Below are positions 10,655 to 20,062 of a DNA stretch of 34,646 nucleotides, in pieces (positions within the stretch are counted from its first letter, which is position 1; each line of letters opens with the position of its first letter). A model generated the notes under the pieces. It was not told the origin of the DNA. It saw only the letters and a list, made by a program, of their open reading frames with translations, and ran no database searches. The position numbers were made by a program, and so were the translations under genes. This DNA comes from Flavobacteriales bacterium (GTDB taxonomy: Bacteria > Bacteroidota > Bacteroidia > Flavobacteriales_E > Vicingaceae), in the NCBI GenBank assembly GCA_029262875.1, contig JAJCYO010000021.1, positions 1-34,646 of the forward strand, read 5' to 3'.

Positions 10655-11785
10655 TTATTTTAAAATAAAGTTGATCGGTAAGTTGAAAGAAACACTAACC
10701 GCCTTACCTCTTTGTTTTCCAGCTTTCCATGGTGGCATAGCTTTAATAACTCTAATGGCTTCTTTATCTAATAAATCGTGTACACCTCTTAAGATCTTAA
10801 TGTTTCTTATTTTTCCATCTTTACCAACTGTAAAGTTTACATATACTTTACCTGAAATACCGTTTGCTTTTGCAGCAGGTGGAAATTTTACATTTTTCCC
10901 TAAATATTCCATCATTTTTTTTGTTCCTCCTGGAAACTCAGGCATGCTTTCAACAATGGTAAATACCTCATCCTCTACCACTTCCTCTTCTTCCTCAAAA
11001 ACCTCAACAACCTCATCCGCATCAATTTCAGTATCTATTTCAATGTCTTCTACTTCTTCATCATCTTCAACAATTTCGATAATTTCTGGTGCAGCAGGTG
11101 GCGGTGGTGGTGGTGGTGGTGGTGTATTTTGCTCTGTAATAGGAATAATGTCTTCTTCTTCCTCATCAACAACCAATTGACCTAACTCACTTGCCTGTAC
11201 GTCAAAGAACTTTAAATTAACTCCTGAATAGACAATAAACAATGCTATTATTAATCCTCCAAGAATAAAAGTTCCTCTTAATTTTTCTAAATCTGCTTTG
11301 GGGTTCTTTTTTGGATCCATCTTTATAATTCCAGCTTTTCGCTTTAGTTTAATGATTAAGTACTCATCAAAGTTATTAATATTATCTGATAAATTTCGTG
11401 TAAGGATTGTTTTCTTTCCGAAATCCAAGTAGGAAACGTTCTCTTTTTCGTAATCTTTAAATGCAAAATCTTTATCAAACTCTACCTTTTTATCAGCATT
11501 AGCATCAACCTCTTCTACTTTTAAACCTCCTTTTACGAATAGTATTGCAAATTCACCCTCTCTCTCGTCTTTAATGTAATTGGCTACAATCTTATTTGAA
11601 GCTACATCATTATTAAACGCATTTATCGAATAATCAGTCACCTTCTTAAAGGTCTCATTCAATAAAGCGAATATTTCTTTACCTCTTTCATCTGCATCCT
11701 CTTGAGAGGCTACATCGATAAACATTGGTAACCAATATTTTGATTTTTTATCTTTTTCGAATTCAAATTGCAACAAGTACTTCAT
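10655..11785 (-). CDS. tonB: TonB energy transducer with a 155-residue N-terminal extension
   Basis: The product is 376 aa. Residues 156-190 (MDPKKNPKADLEKLRG and then a single membrane helix, GTFILGGLIIALFIVYSGV) look like the normal beginning of a Bacteroidota TonB. Next come an acidic periplasmic linker with nine consecutive prolines (PPPPPPPPPAAPE) and Glu/Asp/Val-rich segments, and a TonB C-terminal domain (about 285-376: FPGGTKKMMEYL, KVYVNFTVGKDGKI, MPPWKAGKQRGKAV). It would transmit proton-motive force from ExbBD to outer-membrane receptors. The oddity is residues 1-155 (MKYLLQFEFEKDKKSKYWLP...), a soluble, charged segment predicted to be cytoplasmic that I do not recognise. Translation could instead start at the internal ATG (11320), giving an ordinary 221-aa TonB, but the upstream frame is open and has its own ATG. 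It lies 48 bp after vanZ and is followed by a strong terminator. Confidence 0.85.
   Translation of the reverse strand: MKYLLQFEFEKDKKSKYWLPMFIDVASQEDADERGKEIFALLNETFKKVTDYSINAFNNDVASNKIVANYIKDEREGEFAILFVKGGLKVEEVDANADKKVEFDKDFAFKDYEKENVSYLDFGKKTILTRNLSDNINNFDEYLIIKLKRKAGIIKMDPKKNPKADLEKLRGTFILGGLIIALFIVYSGVNLKFFDVQASELGQLVVDEEEEDIIPITEQNTPPPPPPPPPAAPEIIEIVEDDEEVEDIEIDTEIDADEVVEVFEEEEEVVEDEVFTIVESMPEFPGGTKKMMEYLGKNVKFPPAAKANGISGKVYVNFTVGKDGKIRNIKILRGVHDLLDKEAIRVIKAMPPWKAGKQRGKAVSVSFNLPINFILK
11097..11123 (-). repeat. GGT/GGC trinucleotide microsatellite encoding the TonB poly-Pro tract
   Basis: There are nine consecutive GGT or GGC triplets on the plus strand, read as CCN (Pro) codons on the minus strand. 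Slippage here would change the length of the proline rod of TonB without breaking the frame. Confidence 0.9.
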
Positions 11786-11833: not shown

Positions 11834-12223
11834 TTACTTTATTTTAAACCATCTATTAATCGGTAACAATTTGATAATAAACGGGTAAATTAAAACCCCA
11901 ATAATTGCACCAATTGTGTTGGCCATAAAATCATACCAATTGCCACTTCTATTAATAAAGATGCTATCCTGAAGAAATTCCATAAATCCTCCGTAGAAAA
12001 CCGCAATAAAAATAATGCTCAGACTTAACTTTAAACGATTTTTTCCACTTGTATATTGCTTATGAAAAGCAATCATCAAGCATATAGAAAGCACTGCATA
12101 AACAACAGAATGGACCAATTTATCAAATTGCCAAACCGGGACTTTGGGAACATGGTGGCCAGGATAGCCACTAATTATAACGATAATAACTCCCCATACC
12201 ATTGATGGGACAAATGATTTCAA
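11834..12223 (-). CDS. VanZ-like family membrane protein
   Basis: The product is 129 aa with about four membrane helices. It carries the family hallmarks: FDKLVHSVVYAVL near residue 33, FYGGFMEFLQ near 77, and a WYDFMANTIGAIIG segment near 97. These match the D-K-x-x-H, E-x-x-Q and D-x-x-A-N positions of VanZ-like proteins. VanZ itself gives low-level teicoplanin resistance, but this short chromosomal relative has no assigned function. The longest frame starts at TTG (12223), preceded in frame by a stop; the alternative ATG at 12202 would remove seven residues of the first helix. TTG is kept because it completes that helix, but this is uncertain. It follows gcvH by 13 bp and precedes tonB. 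Confidence 0.8.
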   Translation of the reverse strand: MKSFVPSMVWGVIIVIISGYPGHHVPKVPVWQFDKLVHSVVYAVLSICLMIAFHKQYTSGKNRLKLSLSIIFIAVFYGGFMEFLQDSIFINRSGNWYDFMANTIGAIIGVLIYPFIIKLLPINRWFKIK

Positions 12224-12236
12224 TTTTTAAAAGGTG

Positions 12237-12614
12237 TTATCCTATGATCTCACTATACTGCTCAGCAGAAAGTAAGTCATCTAATTCTGAAGTATCTGAC
12301 AATTTAACTTTAATCATCCATCCGTCTCCATAAGCATCTCCATTTACAGATTCTGGTGCAGATTCGATTGCTTCATTAAATTCAATAACCTCACCTGAAA
12401 CAGGCATGAATAAATCAGAAACTGTTTTTACCGCTTCTACCGTACCAAAAACTTCTTCTTTTGCCAAGGTTTCCCCCTCTGTTTCTACTTCAACATAAAC
12501 AATATCACCCAATTCTCCTTGAGCAAAATCGGTAATGCCAATGGTTACAGTATCACCATCAATTTTTACCCACTCGTGATCTTTTGTATATTTTAACTCT
12601 GCTGGAACGCTCAT
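12237..12614 (-). CDS. gcvH: Glycine cleavage system H protein
   Basis: The product is 125 aa, the usual length. H protein carries the lipoyl arm that shuttles the aminomethyl group between the P, T and L proteins of glycine cleavage, in the cytoplasm. The lipoyl lysine is Lys63 in the motif [20 protein letters not shown]. The N-terminal [13 protein letters not shown] and the [14 protein letters not shown] strand are also family-typical. Genes for P, T and L are not in this window. A near-perfect promoter (12655-12684) lies 40 bp upstream, so gcvH begins its own transcript with vanZ and tonB behind it rather than depending on sprA. Confidence 0.97.
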
Positions 12615-12688: not shown

Positions 12689-15600
12689 TTATTGTGTTAA
12701 TGTAAACCTTAAACTAATCCCTGCATTCGTATTTGATGTCGGGAATGTTGTTGAAATAGCTGGTGTAGTGGAAACATAGTCATAAAAAGCTCTAACATTG
12801 AGTTTTGCACTTACTCTGTAATCTGCTGTAAATTTAATCGTAAACACCTTTTGTCCTCCTGTTAATTGATTAACTTCTTCTACTATTTTTCTTACAACAG
12901 TATTATTATCTCTAATTCCGATTTCAATTCTTGTATCAATGTCACTTCTAACCATTCTCTTTTTAGAGAAAGGCATTTTAACTTGTCTAAATTTATACCC
13001 TGTTCCAATGGACCACTCACTACCTTTTATTTCCGTTATTTGATTATTAGACAGACTCAAGGAAGCATTCCTATCTTGCTTGTATTCAATTCTAAATGTC
13101 ATGTTATTGTTTAATGTCATGTCTGCTCCTAATAACGGTGAAAATTGTTCTGACATCGATACTGTGGATATCTGATATTCAGGAATGAAATTCGTATTGA
13201 TATCTCTTGCGCTTGCATCACCGGCTACCTCTTCATATAACAAATTGGTCGTAAACGAACTATAATTTAATGTAGATTTATATGAATGTGTTAATGTGAA
13301 CTTTTTAAATAATCTATTGATAAATGCAATTTTACTTAATCCATCATACGTAGCTCTCCAGTTTGGTAATGGAATAAATGAAGTAAACGATTTTAAAGAA
13401 ACTTTATCACCACTTTTCCCTGAATATGCCGCAATAAAAGCTGGAATTAATACGTCTTGTGCTGTTCCATTATAACCGTCACTATAGGCACCATTTGTTC
13501 CAAAAGAGTTTGTATTTTCATCCCCTAATCGTTGTGAGATTGTTGCTCTTTCTTTTAAGAAATTATCAAATATTTCTGATGATCTATCCAATGGGTCATC
13601 ACCCATAAAAGCAGTATTGAATGATAAAAATGACATGCTAAAATTTCCTGTCACCATTGGAGTAACAAAGAAGTAATCATCACGCAATTCACCATTTAAA
13701 GAGTCATTAAATACAAAAGTACTTGGATCTGTCTTAAAAAATTGTTGGGTCGTATTCTCAGAATAAGTACGTGTCGCAGTCAGTTGAATTCTTAATGTTT
13801 TAATTGGTCGAACCGTTGCTCTTACATTGTAATTTTCTGAATAGGTGTTATTGTAATTGTATAATAAAGATTCATTATCAATTAACCAATCCCGTTCTGC
13901 TGCATTCAATGCAAAATCATCTTCTTGAATACCAGAAACAAAATTGAACCCTGGAGCAGAGAAATTAGGATTGTATCCCAAAATTTCAGATTCTTGGCTA
14001 TAACCTGGCAATAAGGTACCTCTATTTCTGGTGTAAGTTCCTGAGATATTTTTAGCACTCATCATCCCCAACCAAATAGGATCCATTGGGTGAAAAGGTT
14101 CTTTTTTCCTCCATAGCTCTACTCTGGTTGAATCAGTATCTTTAAACTTTTTAGTTTCAAATTTTATGTCAGGAGGTGGCACCCCAGCTTTCCAACCCCT
14201 CACTTTTGCGTTCTCTGCTTGTGTTTTATTTGGATCAGGTTTTTGGCTTCGTAATGCTCTCCTTCTTTGCCTATCTCTAGCTCTCTTATTCACTTTTTTC
14301 AAAAACCCAACTTGATTGTGCAGCTTTGTCATATTGAACTGAGAATTGGCAGAAACGGTATTTGAATTTTGTATGGTATGCCCCAAGGTATCAGCTCCTA
14401 TTGGTGACCTTTGCCAATCGTAATCTCCCGAATAACGTGTAGTAAGGGTAACAAAACCTAACCCAGGAAATTTATTTATTGGTACTGCATAATTTAAATT
14501 GAAATTATGGTGGTAATGTGTATTCGTTCCAAAATCCCTTACATTTTGCCAAACAGTATCTCTCCATGACGCATATTCTTCTGGATAATCTTGATCAACC
14601 CTTCCTCTTGTATCAACTCCATTAAATGTTAATGGCTCTTCAATGGTAGCATTGTTGCTGGCATTAAAATCAAACTTTAAAGCTTTCGTAACGTCATACT
14701 TCAAGCCATAAATTCGATTCCAATAAAAATGTTTTTGATAGTAGGTTGGTAATGCAAAACTAAACCCTGTATTGTTTCTGGCTCTTCTTTCTGAATACAT
14801 TCTATCCACATCTGTTTGAAAGGTTAACTGTTTTGGTGCTAAATAAAAATTAAAGTCTTTGATTAGTTTAAATCCTTTTTTCTTAGCAAATGCTGCTTTA
14901 TCAAATGGTTTATAATTTTTCGGATTGGAGCCAAAAGCGTACCCGATACCACCTCTGTAGTTTTTCTTATTGTCAAATTCTGTATCAATATCTCTATATT
15001 TTGTCTCAGAATAACCATAGTTAAACGAAACATTAGAAATATCATAGAAATGCGACTTTGTTTGTCCCTTTGGTTTTAGCTTACGCACATTGGTAAAAGT
15101 TATACTGCGCCTTCTTGTTACTTCTTGGCTTCTTACACCTATTGAGTCTCTGGCATCTTGAGATAAAATGTCATTATTTAATAAGTCATTTAACTCTAAA
15201 TCCGGATCAAGAGGGTTATATCTTGGAGTAACAACACCCTCAGAAACATTGTAATACATAGGAACACTAATTCCGATTTTTTCTGGAATAAATTTACCTA
15301 ACTCTATACTTGTAGAAAGATCATACCCTCTTCTTGTTTCTTGTTGCCTTTCATTTAGTTTTTGTTCTACACTCCCAAACCCAGGCGTACTGTAATCACC
15401 TGCAACGGTTATGTTTCCTAAATCTGCTATTTGAGTAGTAATACGAGCTACCGAAGCCCAACCTCCAGAATTATCAAATTCTGCCATACGCAACTCATTT
15501 ACCCATATTTCAGCACATTTTGCTAATCCATCATCATCGGGTACTAATGGACTTTGTTTTCCATTTCTTATTCCAATCATAAAAACCCTTACGTCTCCAA

Positions 15601-18600
15601 TGTTTGGATTCCCTTTTACCCGCATAATATTTTTTCCATCATTTTCTACATACGGTTTAATTAACTGAACTCCACTAGAAGGAACTGGGAGCAGACTATT
15701 CCTAAGCACTTTCATATCAGTCAATTTAGAAAATTGTAAATCGATATTGTTTGCTTCTGGCCAAACAGAATATCGATCACTTTCATTACTGTTATTATCT
15801 GTGTTGTAAGCTCCTGCTGGAGTGACAACTAATGGAACTTCATATTCATAATAGTTATCTGTAAAATCCGACCCCATTCTAATGAAAACAGAAAGATCAT
15901 TATCTACTAATGGCTTTGTAGGGTCACTTTCTTCTGCGTGAATAAACATTTTTAATCGTTTGTATCTTCTAATGTCGATATCCATAATCTTGTACGCTGC
16001 TCGCGCATCTCCATCTTTAAGGTTGCAAACATCTAAAACCAATGACTGCTCATTCAATTGTTGAATATTGCTTCCCGTTGATGGGTTTGGATTTATTTCT
16101 CTATCTATTCCTGGAGGAATAATATAATTGACTGGGGTTTTGGAACTATTCTCTTCCACGTTTACTCCAGAAATATCAAATGTAGTTTCATCGTCATCAT
16201 CCCCAATATAATCCCCTGGACTCAATAATCCTCCACTGAACTTTCTCCACTCTCCTCTCACTAATTCCAGTTTTGCAAAACGCAATACCACTTCCTTACT
16301 AAACCCTTTCATGAACATACGCATAAACCGAATAGATTTAAAGTCTTGGATATTCCCAATTACTTCTTCTGGCTCTCTTATTGGAATTTTAAACTGGTAC
16401 CAACGTATGGTTTTATTTACTCCATCGGGTGTTGTCACATTCGTTGTAAATACATTTGTTATGTAATTATTACCGACATTGGAAGGGTCAATTTCTGCAG
16501 GGTTTAAATTAATAGAATATTGATAGTAATTTTCTCTAAAATCGAGGTTGTTATTGTTGTTTATATCTTCAATATCAGGTCTGGTTGTAGCTGCTGAAGA
16601 ATAATTTGGATTCGGATCTTGCTCTGCTGTATTAGAGTTGCCATCCATACCATTATTAAATTTATATCGTTCCAAAATTGACAATTGTAAATTATCATAA
16701 TCATCACCTCTAAAATGATGATGATTATCTCCGGATGGATCGGCCCCAAATGCTGAACCGAAAAATGCGGTTTCATCAGCATCATTTAATCCGTCCAATC
16801 CAATATCTTGAAATGGTCTTGTACTTGGCGTATTGTCAAATGCATTTACCAAGGCCTGAACAGTAGGAACTCTACCCCAAACGGTAGTATCAACCAAGTT
16901 TACATTGACTCCAGCAGCATAATCAATAGCGGTAAGTGGCATAGCATTTTCAACGGCCTTTCTATCATCTTTTAATATATCTTCAGAAATATCTCCTAAG
17001 TTAAAATATAGCTGACCCCCTGGATGATTAGGGTCTCCATCTAAAGCATCAAAAGGATCCATCATCCAAAACTGGATAAATTCAACATTGGATGATTCAA
17101 AGTCTGTGGTTTCAATCTTTCTCATGATCCCCCCCCAACGCGTTGTTGGATTAATTAAATTTCCATTAACATCAATACCTGAACCTACTCCTGTTCCATC
17201 ATCAAAATTATATTGCCCTCTTTCAGTTGGATAATAGGCTAAATCTAATACTGATATATTTTGAGTTATTCCGTTTTGCTGCGATTTAAATGGAAAAACT
17301 TCTGTTTGCAAGACTTCTCTAGAATAATGATTTGACTGAGTCACAGGATCGCTGGATATGTGATTCGGTGTTCTAGAATCATTTCTCCAAAATAACGGAT
17401 CAATGTTATACCATGCTAATCTTGCTCTATTAAAACCATATTCTAAACTGGTATCAAGAGGAAATATCCCTTCTGGAAAAAGTGTTGGTTGGCCTTGAGG
17501 AGTACTTGCTAACTTCCATTGAGAAAGCGTTTTCATATCAATGGATGATTGACTTCCTTCAAAATCATCTAAATATGATACTCCATCTTTTGTAATCGCT
17601 CCTGGATTTCCAGGTAATAACTTCGCAAATTCCCCCTCAACCGTTATTGTAGATTTTTCCTTAGTACTGTATACTGGTAGTTTATCTGCCCACCTTGTCA
17701 AGAATGGAACTTCGTGCGAATATGTTAAATCAAACCCAAAAATGGTATTGTTAATTGGTTCATCACCTATATTAATCTTATTCGTCAGTGGCCTTTCAGA
17801 TAGTTTTAAGACGGTACCACCTAAATTGAAATTGTCATTAAATTTATAATCAAGTCTGGTCCCCATTAATGTTTTTGTTTGAATGTTAAACAAGGATTGA
17901 CTTTCCAAAGAAATTTTTATCGGTGTTCCTGATTGCAAAATTCCATCGTTAATTATTTTAACCCTACCTAAATTATAATCAACGGTATAATCTACATTCT
18001 CTGTTAAAGCTGCACCTCCTGCAGTAACAGAAACTGACCCATCAGGAATATTCATCGCATTTAAAGAAATATCCGAGCTAGAGGCCGATGAGTACTGCCC
18101 TTTAATTTTGAATCTATTTTTGGACACATCTTGTTCTGCTAAAGTCTGGGTTGTAACATACAATGAATCAAAAGCGAATTTATTAGCTACCGCTTGATTT
18201 GAGAATTGGCTTCTCAAATGTGATCCAAAAGGTTCTAATACAGGAAAATAAACCCTACCATTATTCGGGTTAATGGTAATTCCACTTATGTAATCGAAAA
18301 CACCATCTGGACTCGCTTGATTGTTAGTATTCAATCGATCCAGGTTCATTACACTTACCAAAGGAAGCCCATTAACCTCTCCTTCTGGTATAAAAGGTAT
18401 TTGAACACCAGTTGCTGGATTATTATAAAAAATATCTAAATAAAAATCATTCGAAGAAATATTAAAGGCTCCTAATGCATAAACATTTTTCATCATCAAA
18501 TCCCATGTAGGAATAGAGGTGTTTATATTTGTTCCTTTCAATAATTTAACAATCAAAGCACTCTGTCCAGTTACCCCATCTGTAGAAAATTCACCCACTT

Positions 18601-20062
18601 GATAAACTTGGCCATCTAAGGTATATTGAAACGCAACTGCTAAAATATTATCTGAATTTAGTGACGAGTTTAACGAGACATATCCCAATTGAGTGTTTAG
18701 TGTATACTCAGAAGGATTTAATAGACGGGCATTTTCATACTTTTCAAAATCTGTTCCATTAACATATCCTTGAGCCTGCAGTTCTTGACCTGCTTGAACA
18801 AAGCCTCTTATTTTAGCAGTATCGTAAACCGTGGTCAAATTAGAATATAAATTATTTGCTTCATTATCAGGGTAATTTATATTTGGCGCTGTATTATTAT
18901 CTGTTATTAAAGGGCTAAAAATTCGATTCTGAACTCCCTCTCCTAAATCCATAAACCCAATTATATTTTTTGTGTTTTCAAATGAACTATTAATGTTTGA
19001 AACCCATATTTCTACTTTCGTGATGTTGGCTCGTGAACTGATTACTGGAGGGGTTGATAAAGAATTTTCGTAAGTATCTCTATAGAAATGTGATAAGAAG
19101 TAGTGTTTATTCTCTTCGTAATCTGATGCTTCTTTTTCGAATTTTTGAATCTGTGCTCCCCCTTGAACATTAATTTCTTTTTTCTCTCCTTTTTCTTGAG
19201 ATAAAACACTTGTTACTGTCATTCTTCCAAATCTTAATTCAGTTTTAATACCAAATAAGGTTTGACTACCAGTGATTAACTGCCCTTTAAGCGGAAGAGA
19301 TACGTTTCCCGCTTCTATTTTTTGAATAATTTCATCTTCATAGCCAGTATATTCTATTTTCATTTGATTTTCAAAATCAAATGTAGCCTCAGTATTATAA
19401 CTTGTAGATATTTTTAACTTTTCTCCAATGTGTCCTACAACATTTAACTGTATTTGTTGATTAAAATCAAATGTTGTTGTGCTCCTTTGATTGGCAGGTA
19501 AAGCAGGGTTATCCCTTGTCGATCGGTTAATTCCAAAAGACAGTTCGGCAGAACCCTGAGGTCTAATATCTATTTGATTTCCACCAAATATCCTGTCGAA
19601 TGCTTCTCCTTTTACTGTTAGTTTTGGTCTAAACCCTTTTGTCTGATTTATATCATCAGCAGCAGATTTTTGCTTCCAGTAATCTTGTAGCGATTGTTTC
19701 GAATCATAATTTATGTATTCATCAAAATCCATGTAAGTTGGATATTTGAAATAACGATCTCCTATTTTCTCATAATAATTGTATGTGCCAGTTTCTGGAT
19801 CATACTGAAATCCAGACTCAACATTGCTCGGATTATTCAAGAAAAGTCCTCCTGAGTTATTACTTCCTGGGCCACCTACTCCATCTTTAAATGGATAAGG
19901 CAAATCTATTTCAGGACTATCCAGTGGTAATGCAAGAATTTTATTACCGTTGGGATAAGCATTAGACTGGGGAGGGTTAATTATCCAGTTCACCGTTATA
20001 ATAGCAGCTACAAACCCAACAACTAATAATATTTTGTTATATGTGATTTTCTTTAAACTCAA
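12689..20062 (-). CDS. sprA: SprA, outer-membrane translocon of the type IX secretion system
   Basis: The product is 2457 aa, matching the very large SprA/Sov family. SprA forms a single-chain beta-barrel pore in the outer membrane through which folded T9SS cargo leaves; in gliding species it is also needed for motility. An N-terminal hydrophobic segment (KILLVVGFVAAIITVNWII) serves for export. Family-typical stretches include RPQGSAELSFGINRS, GVSYLDDFEGSQSSIDMKTL and KCAEIWVNELRMAEFDNSGG, and the chain ends in an aromatic-poor strand closing FTLTQ. The start is unusual: the only available start is TTG at 20062, because an in-frame TGA lies two codons upstream and no Met occurs in the first ~100 residues. 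A purine-rich AGAAAGG sits 6 nt before it. It follows ruvA by 15 bp, so it is probably translated from a maeB-ruvA-sprA message. Confidence 0.96.
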   Translation of the reverse strand: MSLKKITYNKILLVVGFVAAIITVNWIINPPQSNAYPNGNKILALPLDSPEIDLPYPFKDGVGGPGSNNSGGLFLNNPSNVESGFQYDPETGTYNYYEKIGDRYFKYPTYMDFDEYINYDSKQSLQDYWKQKSAADDINQTKGFRPKLTVKGEAFDRIFGGNQIDIRPQGSAELSFGINRSTRDNPALPANQRSTTTFDFNQQIQLNVVGHIGEKLKISTSYNTEATFDFENQMKIEYTGYEDEIIQKIEAGNVSLPLKGQLITGSQTLFGIKTELRFGRMTVTSVLSQEKGEKKEINVQGGAQIQKFEKEASDYEENKHYFLSHFYRDTYENSLSTPPVISSRANITKVEIWVSNINSSFENTKNIIGFMDLGEGVQNRIFSPLITDNNTAPNINYPDNEANNLYSNLTTVYDTAKIRGFVQAGQELQAQGYVNGTDFEKYENARLLNPSEYTLNTQLGYVSLNSSLNSDNILAVAFQYTLDGQVYQVGEFSTDGVTGQSALIVKLLKGTNINTSIPTWDLMMKNVYALGAFNISSNDFYLDIFYNNPATGVQIPFIPEGEVNGLPLVSVMNLDRLNTNNQASPDGVFDYISGITINPNNGRVYFPVLEPFGSHLRSQFSNQAVANKFAFDSLYVTTQTLAEQDVSKNRFKIKGQYSSASSSDISLNAMNIPDGSVSVTAGGAALTENVDYTVDYNLGRVKIINDGILQSGTPIKISLESQSLFNIQTKTLMGTRLDYKFNDNFNLGGTVLKLSERPLTNKINIGDEPINNTIFGFDLTYSHEVPFLTRWADKLPVYSTKEKSTITVEGEFAKLLPGNPGAITKDGVSYLDDFEGSQSSIDMKTLSQWKLASTPQGQPTLFPEGIFPLDTSLEYGFNRARLAWYNIDPLFWRNDSRTPNHISSDPVTQSNHYSREVLQTEVFPFKSQQNGITQNISVLDLAYYPTERGQYNFDDGTGVGSGIDVNGNLINPTTRWGGIMRKIETTDFESSNVEFIQFWMMDPFDALDGDPNHPGGQLYFNLGDISEDILKDDRKAVENAMPLTAIDYAAGVNVNLVDTTVWGRVPTVQALVNAFDNTPSTRPFQDIGLDGLNDADETAFFGSAFGADPSGDNHHHFRGDDYDNLQLSILERYKFNNGMDGNSNTAEQDPNPNYSSAATTRPDIEDINNNNNLDFRENYYQYSINLNPAEIDPSNVGNNYITNVFTTNVTTPDGVNKTIRWYQFKIPIREPEEVIGNIQDFKSIRFMRMFMKGFSKEVVLRFAKLELVRGEWRKFSGGLLSPGDYIGDDDDETTFDISGVNVEENSSKTPVNYIIPPGIDREINPNPSTGSNIQQLNEQSLVLDVCNLKDGDARAAYKIMDIDIRRYKRLKMFIHAEESDPTKPLVDNDLSVFIRMGSDFTDNYYEYEVPLVVTPAGAYNTDNNSNESDRYSVWPEANNIDLQFSKLTDMKVLRNSLLPVPSSGVQLIKPYVENDGKNIMRVKGNPNIGDVRVFMIGIRNGKQSPLVPDDDGLAKCAEIWVNELRMAEFDNSGGWASVARITTQIADLGNITVAGDYSTPGFGSVEQKLNERQQETRRGYDLSTSIELGKFIPEKIGISVPMYYNVSEGVVTPRYNPLDPDLELNDLLNNDILSQDARDSIGVRSQEVTRRRSITFTNVRKLKPKGQTKSHFYDISNVSFNYGYSETKYRDIDTEFDNKKNYRGGIGYAFGSNPKNYKPFDKAAFAKKKGFKLIKDFNFYLAPKQLTFQTDVDRMYSERRARNNTGFSFALPTYYQKHFYWNRIYGLKYDVTKALKFDFNASNNATIEEPLTFNGVDTRGRVDQDYPEEYASWRDTVWQNVRDFGTNTHYHHNFNLNYAVPINKFPGLGFVTLTTRYSGDYDWQRSPIGADTLGHTIQNSNTVSANSQFNMTKLHNQVGFLKKVNKRARDRQRRRALRSQKPDPNKTQAENAKVRGWKAGVPPPDIKFETKKFKDTDSTRVELWRKKEPFHPMDPIWLGMMSAKNISGTYTRNRGTLLPGYSQESEILGYNPNFSAPGFNFVSGIQEDDFALNAAERDWLIDNESLLYNYNNTYSENYNVRATVRPIKTLRIQLTATRTYSENTTQQFFKTDPSTFVFNDSLNGELRDDYFFVTPMVTGNFSMSFLSFNTAFMGDDPLDRSSEIFDNFLKERATISQRLGDENTNSFGTNGAYSDGYNGTAQDVLIPAFIAAYSGKSGDKVSLKSFTSFIPLPNWRATYDGLSKIAFINRLFKKFTLTHSYKSTLNYSSFTTNLLYEEVAGDASARDINTNFIPEYQISTVSMSEQFSPLLGADMTLNNNMTFRIEYKQDRNASLSLSNNQITEIKGSEWSIGTGYKFRQVKMPFSKKRMVRSDIDTRIEIGIRDNNTVVRKIVEEVNQLTGGQKVFTIKFTADYRVSAKLNVRAFYDYVSTTPAISTTFPTSNTNAGISLRFTLTQ

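Follow-up and report, generated by a model that had tools for sequence, protein, structure and literature searches.

A conserved 155-residue N-terminal extension of TonB in a small set of uncultured bacteria related to flavobacteria

In the 34,646-nucleotide stretch of DNA analysed here (the window), the open reading frame 11785-10655 on the reverse strand encodes an ordinary Bacteroidota TonB (residues 156-376) preceded by an N-terminal extension of 155 residues. We rate at about an even chance the reading that its product is one fused protein, in which a Bacteroidota TonB bears a conserved accessory domain, presumably folded and predicted to be cytoplasmic, that would serve in docking or regulation, and that alleles with and without this domain are exchanged by recombination. 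As a lineage-restricted domain set exactly at the start codon, with the remainder of the gene unchanged, it makes a clean case.

Parts and conservation of the fused TonB

The frame comprises 376 residues and begins with ATG; the codons TAA GCT lie directly ahead of it, and this in-frame stop limits the frame upstream, leaving no further extension. The first-pass annotation had described a complete ordinary TonB from residue 156 onward, and this was borne out by the Met at 11318-11320 together with MDPKKNPKADLEK and by a match to TonB_C (E 6e-19; 68.7 bits against a curated cut-off of 24.6). The NCBIfam model tonB_Cterm (TIGR01352) also matched at residues 300-375 (E 1.1e-12). The most hydrophobic 19-residue stretch of the protein spans residues 173-191 (Kyte-Doolittle mean 2.22), and a run of nine prolines follows the membrane helix in the translation. 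About 172 residues lie ahead of the helix in the fused TonB, against about 17 in its unfused counterparts. The features of the locus are collected in Table 1.

Table 1. Features of the fused tonB gene and its neighbours in the window
Feature	Position	Strand	Basis
vanZ-like gene directly upstream of fused tonB	11834..12223	-	syntenic neighbour
gcvH	12237..12614	-	syntenic neighbour
sprA	12689..20062	-	syntenic neighbour
alpha-2-macroglobulin (A2M)-like gene downstream, 1875 residues	4895..10522	-	syntenic neighbour
N-terminal extension, residues 1-155 of fused TonB	11321..11785	-	in-frame conservation in 4 genomes including own; no family above cut-off
Met codon within the frame (residue 156), equivalent to the unfused tonB start	11318..11320	-	start-context score -2.8
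TonB proper, residues 156-376 (stop codon 10655-10657)	10658..11320	-	translation, TonB_C match
transmembrane helix, about residues 173-191	11213..11269	-	hydropathy
TonB C-terminal domain, residues 298-375	10661..10894	-	PF03544, E 6e-19

TonB-like matches were obtained in all 60 genomes searched, including the window's own, and not all of them are orthologues. The window's own genome has two tonB-like genes in tandem elsewhere (G000:C147:35044-36398), and three genomes have a second, shorter TonB-like frame of 155-160 residues immediately behind the best-matching tonB (G029:C42:113263-113631, G035:C19:16632-16973 and G016:C10:148415-148768). At locus L023 (G059:C15) the TonB frame is 311 residues long, with a different N-terminal region that by eye resembles two membrane helices, a further type of TonB extension.

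When the extension alone was searched against 100 relatives, four carriers were recovered: the window's own genome (G000; E 7.7e-97), G006 (2.0e-67) and G002 (3.9e-66) from the same genus, and G027 (3.2e-47) from another genus. The next-best E value was 0.009, and weak matches in 25 further genomes (best E 0.009 to 0.6) were taken as chance. A four-row profile found the whole fusion, uninterrupted by stops and in a single frame with TonB, in the same four genomes among 46 of the family (the order-level sample consisted of the same 46). The carriers are uncultured bacteria, few in number and related to flavobacteria. Identity of the extension to that of the window is 72% in G006, 69% in G002 and 51% in G027; it begins at Met1, the motif MKYLLQFEF is present in all four, and each fused gene has an in-frame stop close upstream of Met1.

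For the three within-genus pairs, the Nei-Gojobori method (NG86) gave dN of 0.17-0.19 and dS of 0.83-1.06 for the extension (dN/dS 0.16-0.23), and YN00 gave 0.16-0.20 and 0.64-1.00. The TonB part of the same pairs had an NG86 dN of 0.04-0.08. Within the genus the extension is under purifying selection, looser than that on the TonB part. Conservation in frame in 4 of 46 genomes, with dN well below dS, argues that the extension is not a chance frame; the first-pass annotation had held that a lack of conservation of the upstream frame in close relatives would speak against the fusion, and these genomes conserve it.

The sprA-gcvH-vanZ-tonB locus and the history of the extension

Among the 14 genus members, 10 have the order sprA-gcvH-vanZ-tonB with tonB immediately after vanZ and without the extension, and three have the extension. 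The contig of the remaining member, G009, is broken within tonB, and its match contains one in-frame stop. The question raised at the outset, whether relatives keep the fusion at this locus, was answered positively for three genus members, the window's own genome included, and negatively for the 10 with an unfused tonB at the same place. Presence of the fusion varies at this locus, and the unfused gene is the common state. The A2M-like gene is syntenic in 12 of the 13 genus members examined, the window's own included, and comes after tonB in nine of the 10 unfused ones; it was not found within the 3.5 kb examined after tonB in G004. The assembly of G013, the unfused sister, is a draft with 71% completeness and 5% contamination, though it carries vanZ and tonB continuously on one contig. 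In other genera of the family, tonB lacks the extension at loci L017-L021, L022, L025 and L029, and in two of these, G035 and G029, the stretches around tonB gave no sprA or gcvH match. In the distant carrier G027, gcvH lies ahead of the fused gene and nothing matching vanZ separates them.

The join between extension and TonB is exact and lies at the same point in all four fused genes, the extension ending directly at the TonB Met (MDPKKNPKADLE). After this Met, all four read MDPKK and the 10 unfused genus genes read ME[PS]KK; the only other Asp at this position in the TonB set occurs in the unfused gene of G017. In the three genus carriers, the leader DNA ahead of the extension can be aligned, if loosely, to the leaders of the 10 unfused tonB genes.

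Trees were then compared with the distribution of the extension. A TonB tree of 28 rows needed four state changes, two of them forced by well-supported branches. Its input was 29 of 30 loci, L028 (the broken contig of G009) being left out; L027 (G058) was dropped, and about 110 extension residues in the G027 row were removed by a 30% column-filling rule. A quick search on SprA, GcvH and A2M (17 rows, with G004 filling 29% of columns) likewise needed four changes, three of them forced by well-supported branches. In a 12-row genus tree, also a quick search and without G004, a single clade of the three genus carriers was rejected (p-AU 6e-55), and a clade of G000 and G002 was not (p 0.07). The genus carriers are not one clade, and the extension has a patchy distribution, which implies that it was gained or lost repeatedly. 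Such repeated gain or loss most likely proceeded through allele exchange. Gene exchange would take the fewest steps, although the trees alone do not separate gain from loss. At synonymous sites the extension is roughly as divergent as TonB, so any transfer would be old.

We propose that fused and unfused alleles are exchanged by homologous recombination running through vanZ on one side and the conserved beginning of tonB on the other. The coding block of the extension occupies precisely the interval from a tonB-like leader to the former tonB start codon and is present in some close relatives and absent from others; this exact placement, together with presence and absence among close relatives, fits homologous exchange of alleles.

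It is possible, though we think it unlikely, that the extension instead dates back to the ancestor of this TonB and was lost many times. The similar synonymous distances of the two parts are in keeping with such an origin, as is the presence of the extension in G027 on the same gene adjoining gcvH. Against it, the 12-row tree would need three losses inside an inner clade of six alone, with more losses elsewhere if the common ancestor of G027 and the genus had the extension, and in the 10 unfused genus genes tonB is immediately preceded by a conserved leader and its Met is followed by Glu. Moreover, identity of the extension falls from 69-72% within the genus to 51% in G027, compared with a fall from 81-82% to 52% for the partly covered SprA, so that, judged by SprA, the extension shows less divergence between genera than expected, an effect that unequal rates could also produce.

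Searches for relatives and possible role of the extension

The extension is soluble and charged (23 K, 4 R, 15 D, 15 E), and the best 19-residue hydropathy mean lying wholly within residues 1-155 is 0.69, in agreement with the first-pass description of a region without a membrane helix. The helix is flanked by KLKRKAG..KMDPKKNPKADLEKLRG on its N side and VDEEEED on its C side, a pattern that fits the established positive-inside rule, so the extension should be on the cytoplasmic side, as had been proposed; this prediction rests on the charge pattern.

The extension had also been called unrecognised, and family searches (Pfam, NCBIfam, PADLOC and PHROGs) agreed: nothing in Pfam exceeded its curated cut-off (best E 0.0077, 16.4 bits against 26), and NCBIfam gave no match at E 1. 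One of the four extensions (member L033, residues 43-120) matched phrog_10023, a PHROG of function not known, at E 8.5e-5; the other three, including that of the window, had no match at E 1, and we provisionally took this match as chance. In a profile search of solved structures the top match (E 0.0023) was a molybdenum cofactor protein, covering residues 27-134. Two AlphaFold2 runs on the four sequences reached mean pLDDT values of 44.3 and 45.6; in the latter, the first 60 residues were modelled as strand-strand-helix-strand (block means 55-79) and the remainder at 23-45. Foldseek returned no matches to the extension model at E 0.001 or better. The best VIA-align match was PurS (Z 5.4, rmsd 2.6, 58 aligned positions) to residues 1-58 of the model with mean pLDDT 45.6, and a Z under 8 in this tool may reflect a common arrangement.

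Searches of plasmids and of phages gave no match at E 1, and none of 105 candidates in viral contigs was confirmed. A search of genome contigs that needs near-exact short peptides yielded the three known carriers among 283 candidates and no others. The extension was found in one of 395 genomes of a phylum sample, the window's own, and a class sample of 395 genomes gave the three carriers drawn in it and ten genomes with weak matches (E 0.003-0.09); both samples cover at most nine candidates per genome among the matches listed, and weak relatives may be missed. Among the collections searched there is no credible homologue beyond the four carriers.

One candidate was followed further and judged to be at chance level. 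A DnaJ-like zinc-finger frame in G088 (L065; 1357-1950, reverse strand, 198 residues) has, after its CxxCxGxG finger (Pfam E 2e-4, below cut-off), a stretch that resembles residues 2-51 of the extension. It scored 21.1 bits against profile columns 1-57, with 7.7 bits at most among the 1524 shuffles reported of 2000; against columns 101-156 it scored -3.7, a value that 1647 of the 1648 reported shuffles at least equalled. Weak matches to the L065 domain occurred in four other genomes of 149 (E 0.047-0.093), and the profile with L065 added gave, beyond three carriers and G088, matches in 17 of 395 genomes at E 0.009-0.099 that were taken as chance. As a stand-alone relative over the whole domain L065 was set aside as unproven, since the last third is unsupported and an E of 0.004 per genome is at chance level among 395. 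The gene next to it appears by eye to be a restriction enzyme.

TonB usually has a short cytoplasmic tail, which is not required for membership of the family, and is usually regarded as passive on the cytoplasmic side. Attached to the TonB helix at its cytoplasmic end, the extension would lie near ExbB, and as an accessory docking or regulatory module it might there adjust the place or timing at which this TonB couples to the proton-driven motor, the weakest step of the proposal. ExbB has a relatively large cytoplasmic domain according to the available part of a review; with the extension placed near it, the most economical guess is a lineage-restricted accessory domain that docks onto the ExbB motor or controls it. 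Two genes of the MotA_ExbB family lie on other contigs of the window's genome, so position does not name the partner. A bolder version, which we offer tentatively and consider doubtful, is that a cytoplasmic domain swapped on and off TonB between species at the start codon controls motor coupling and creates two alternative control states. A conserved domain present or absent between same-locus counterparts provides a natural experiment on cytoplasmic control of the Ton complex; being known from four genomes, it is a rare variant, of limited importance until a carrier is cultured.

The first-pass annotation had suggested that a cytoplasmic sensory or docking domain could couple import energy to an internal signal. 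As a sensor, the extension would bind some metabolite or protein of the cytoplasm and thereby gate the energy for import. The charge pattern, which points to the cytoplasmic side, and several invariant residues suit such a sensor, as does the strand-strand-helix-strand order of the first 60 residues, which is common to many small domains. The searches recognised no ligand-binding or signalling family and no ligand site, and the PurS match comes from a low-confidence model with a Z in the range that the tool calls common. We therefore regard a sensor as distinctly unlikely.

The start codon and comparison with known Ton-system extensions

A start-context model built on 22 genus starts separated starts from internal Mets with a leave-one-locus-out AUC of 0.82. 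The 10 unfused genus tonB starts scored 1.8 to 8.5 and the four internal TonB Mets -4.1 to -0.6. In all four fused genes the upstream ATG outscored the internal Met, barely so in the window's gene (-2.3 against -2.8), slightly in G002 (0.6 against -0.6) and by far in G006 (3.7 against -4.1) and G027 (1.9 against -4.0). Within this weak model the long product is favoured over the 221-residue form as the main product, weakly for the window. There, Met1 scores about the same as Met156, and Met21, where the other three carriers have no Met, scores above both (1.1), so that with a model of 22 starts shorter forms are possible.

Translation mainly from the internal Met (11320), or production of both long and short forms, seems to us quite improbable. 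The internal Met is kept in all four fused genes and the two scores of the window nearly coincide; yet the residues after this Met are conserved in unfused genes too, making its retention weak evidence for initiation, and the upstream start is the better one in the other three genes, far more so in two of them. In all four the reading frame passes from extension to TonB without a stop, and translation that begins upstream therefore continues into TonB. That two neighbouring genes were joined by an assembly error, or that the frame arose by chance, has a negligible probability, since, although the genomes are drafts (the window's own in 173 contigs), the junction is identical in four separate assemblies and dN of the extension is far below dS.

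The first-pass annotation had named the fusion the window's best candidate for an undescribed arrangement. Open-licence PubMed Central articles, including PMC11658791, PMC9008036, PMC1790865, PMC12204202, PMC10734418, PMC11002078 and PMC9389320, contained, in the parts available, nothing recognisable as this domain, a negative that does not establish that the domain is unpublished. N-terminal extensions of TonB as such have already been described.

Like the canonical Bacteroidota TonB (PF03544, TIGR01352), which occupies this locus in unfused form in 10 genus members, the fused protein has a transmembrane helix, an acidic proline-rich periplasmic part and the C-terminal domain; unlike it, the fused protein has 155 extra residues ahead of the short cytoplasmic tail. 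TonB1 of Pseudomonas aeruginosa reportedly has an N-terminal cytoplasmic extension, as described by Zhao and Poole in 2002. That extension likewise lies ahead of the TonB membrane helix and is reportedly about half as long. The TonB1a type, described in Teredinibacter and said to occur in a small number of bacteria, also carries an N-terminal extension, there given as of unknown function (PMC10734418); it is a region of four predicted membrane helices, whereas the extension in the window is soluble and charged. A further Ton-system part with an N-terminal extension is the long ExbB of Serratia, where, in the available portions of the reports, the extension is non-essential and contributes to activity (PMC9008036, PMC11658791); in contrast to the one described here, it belongs to ExbB and is periplasmic, Ala/Pro-rich and likely unstructured.
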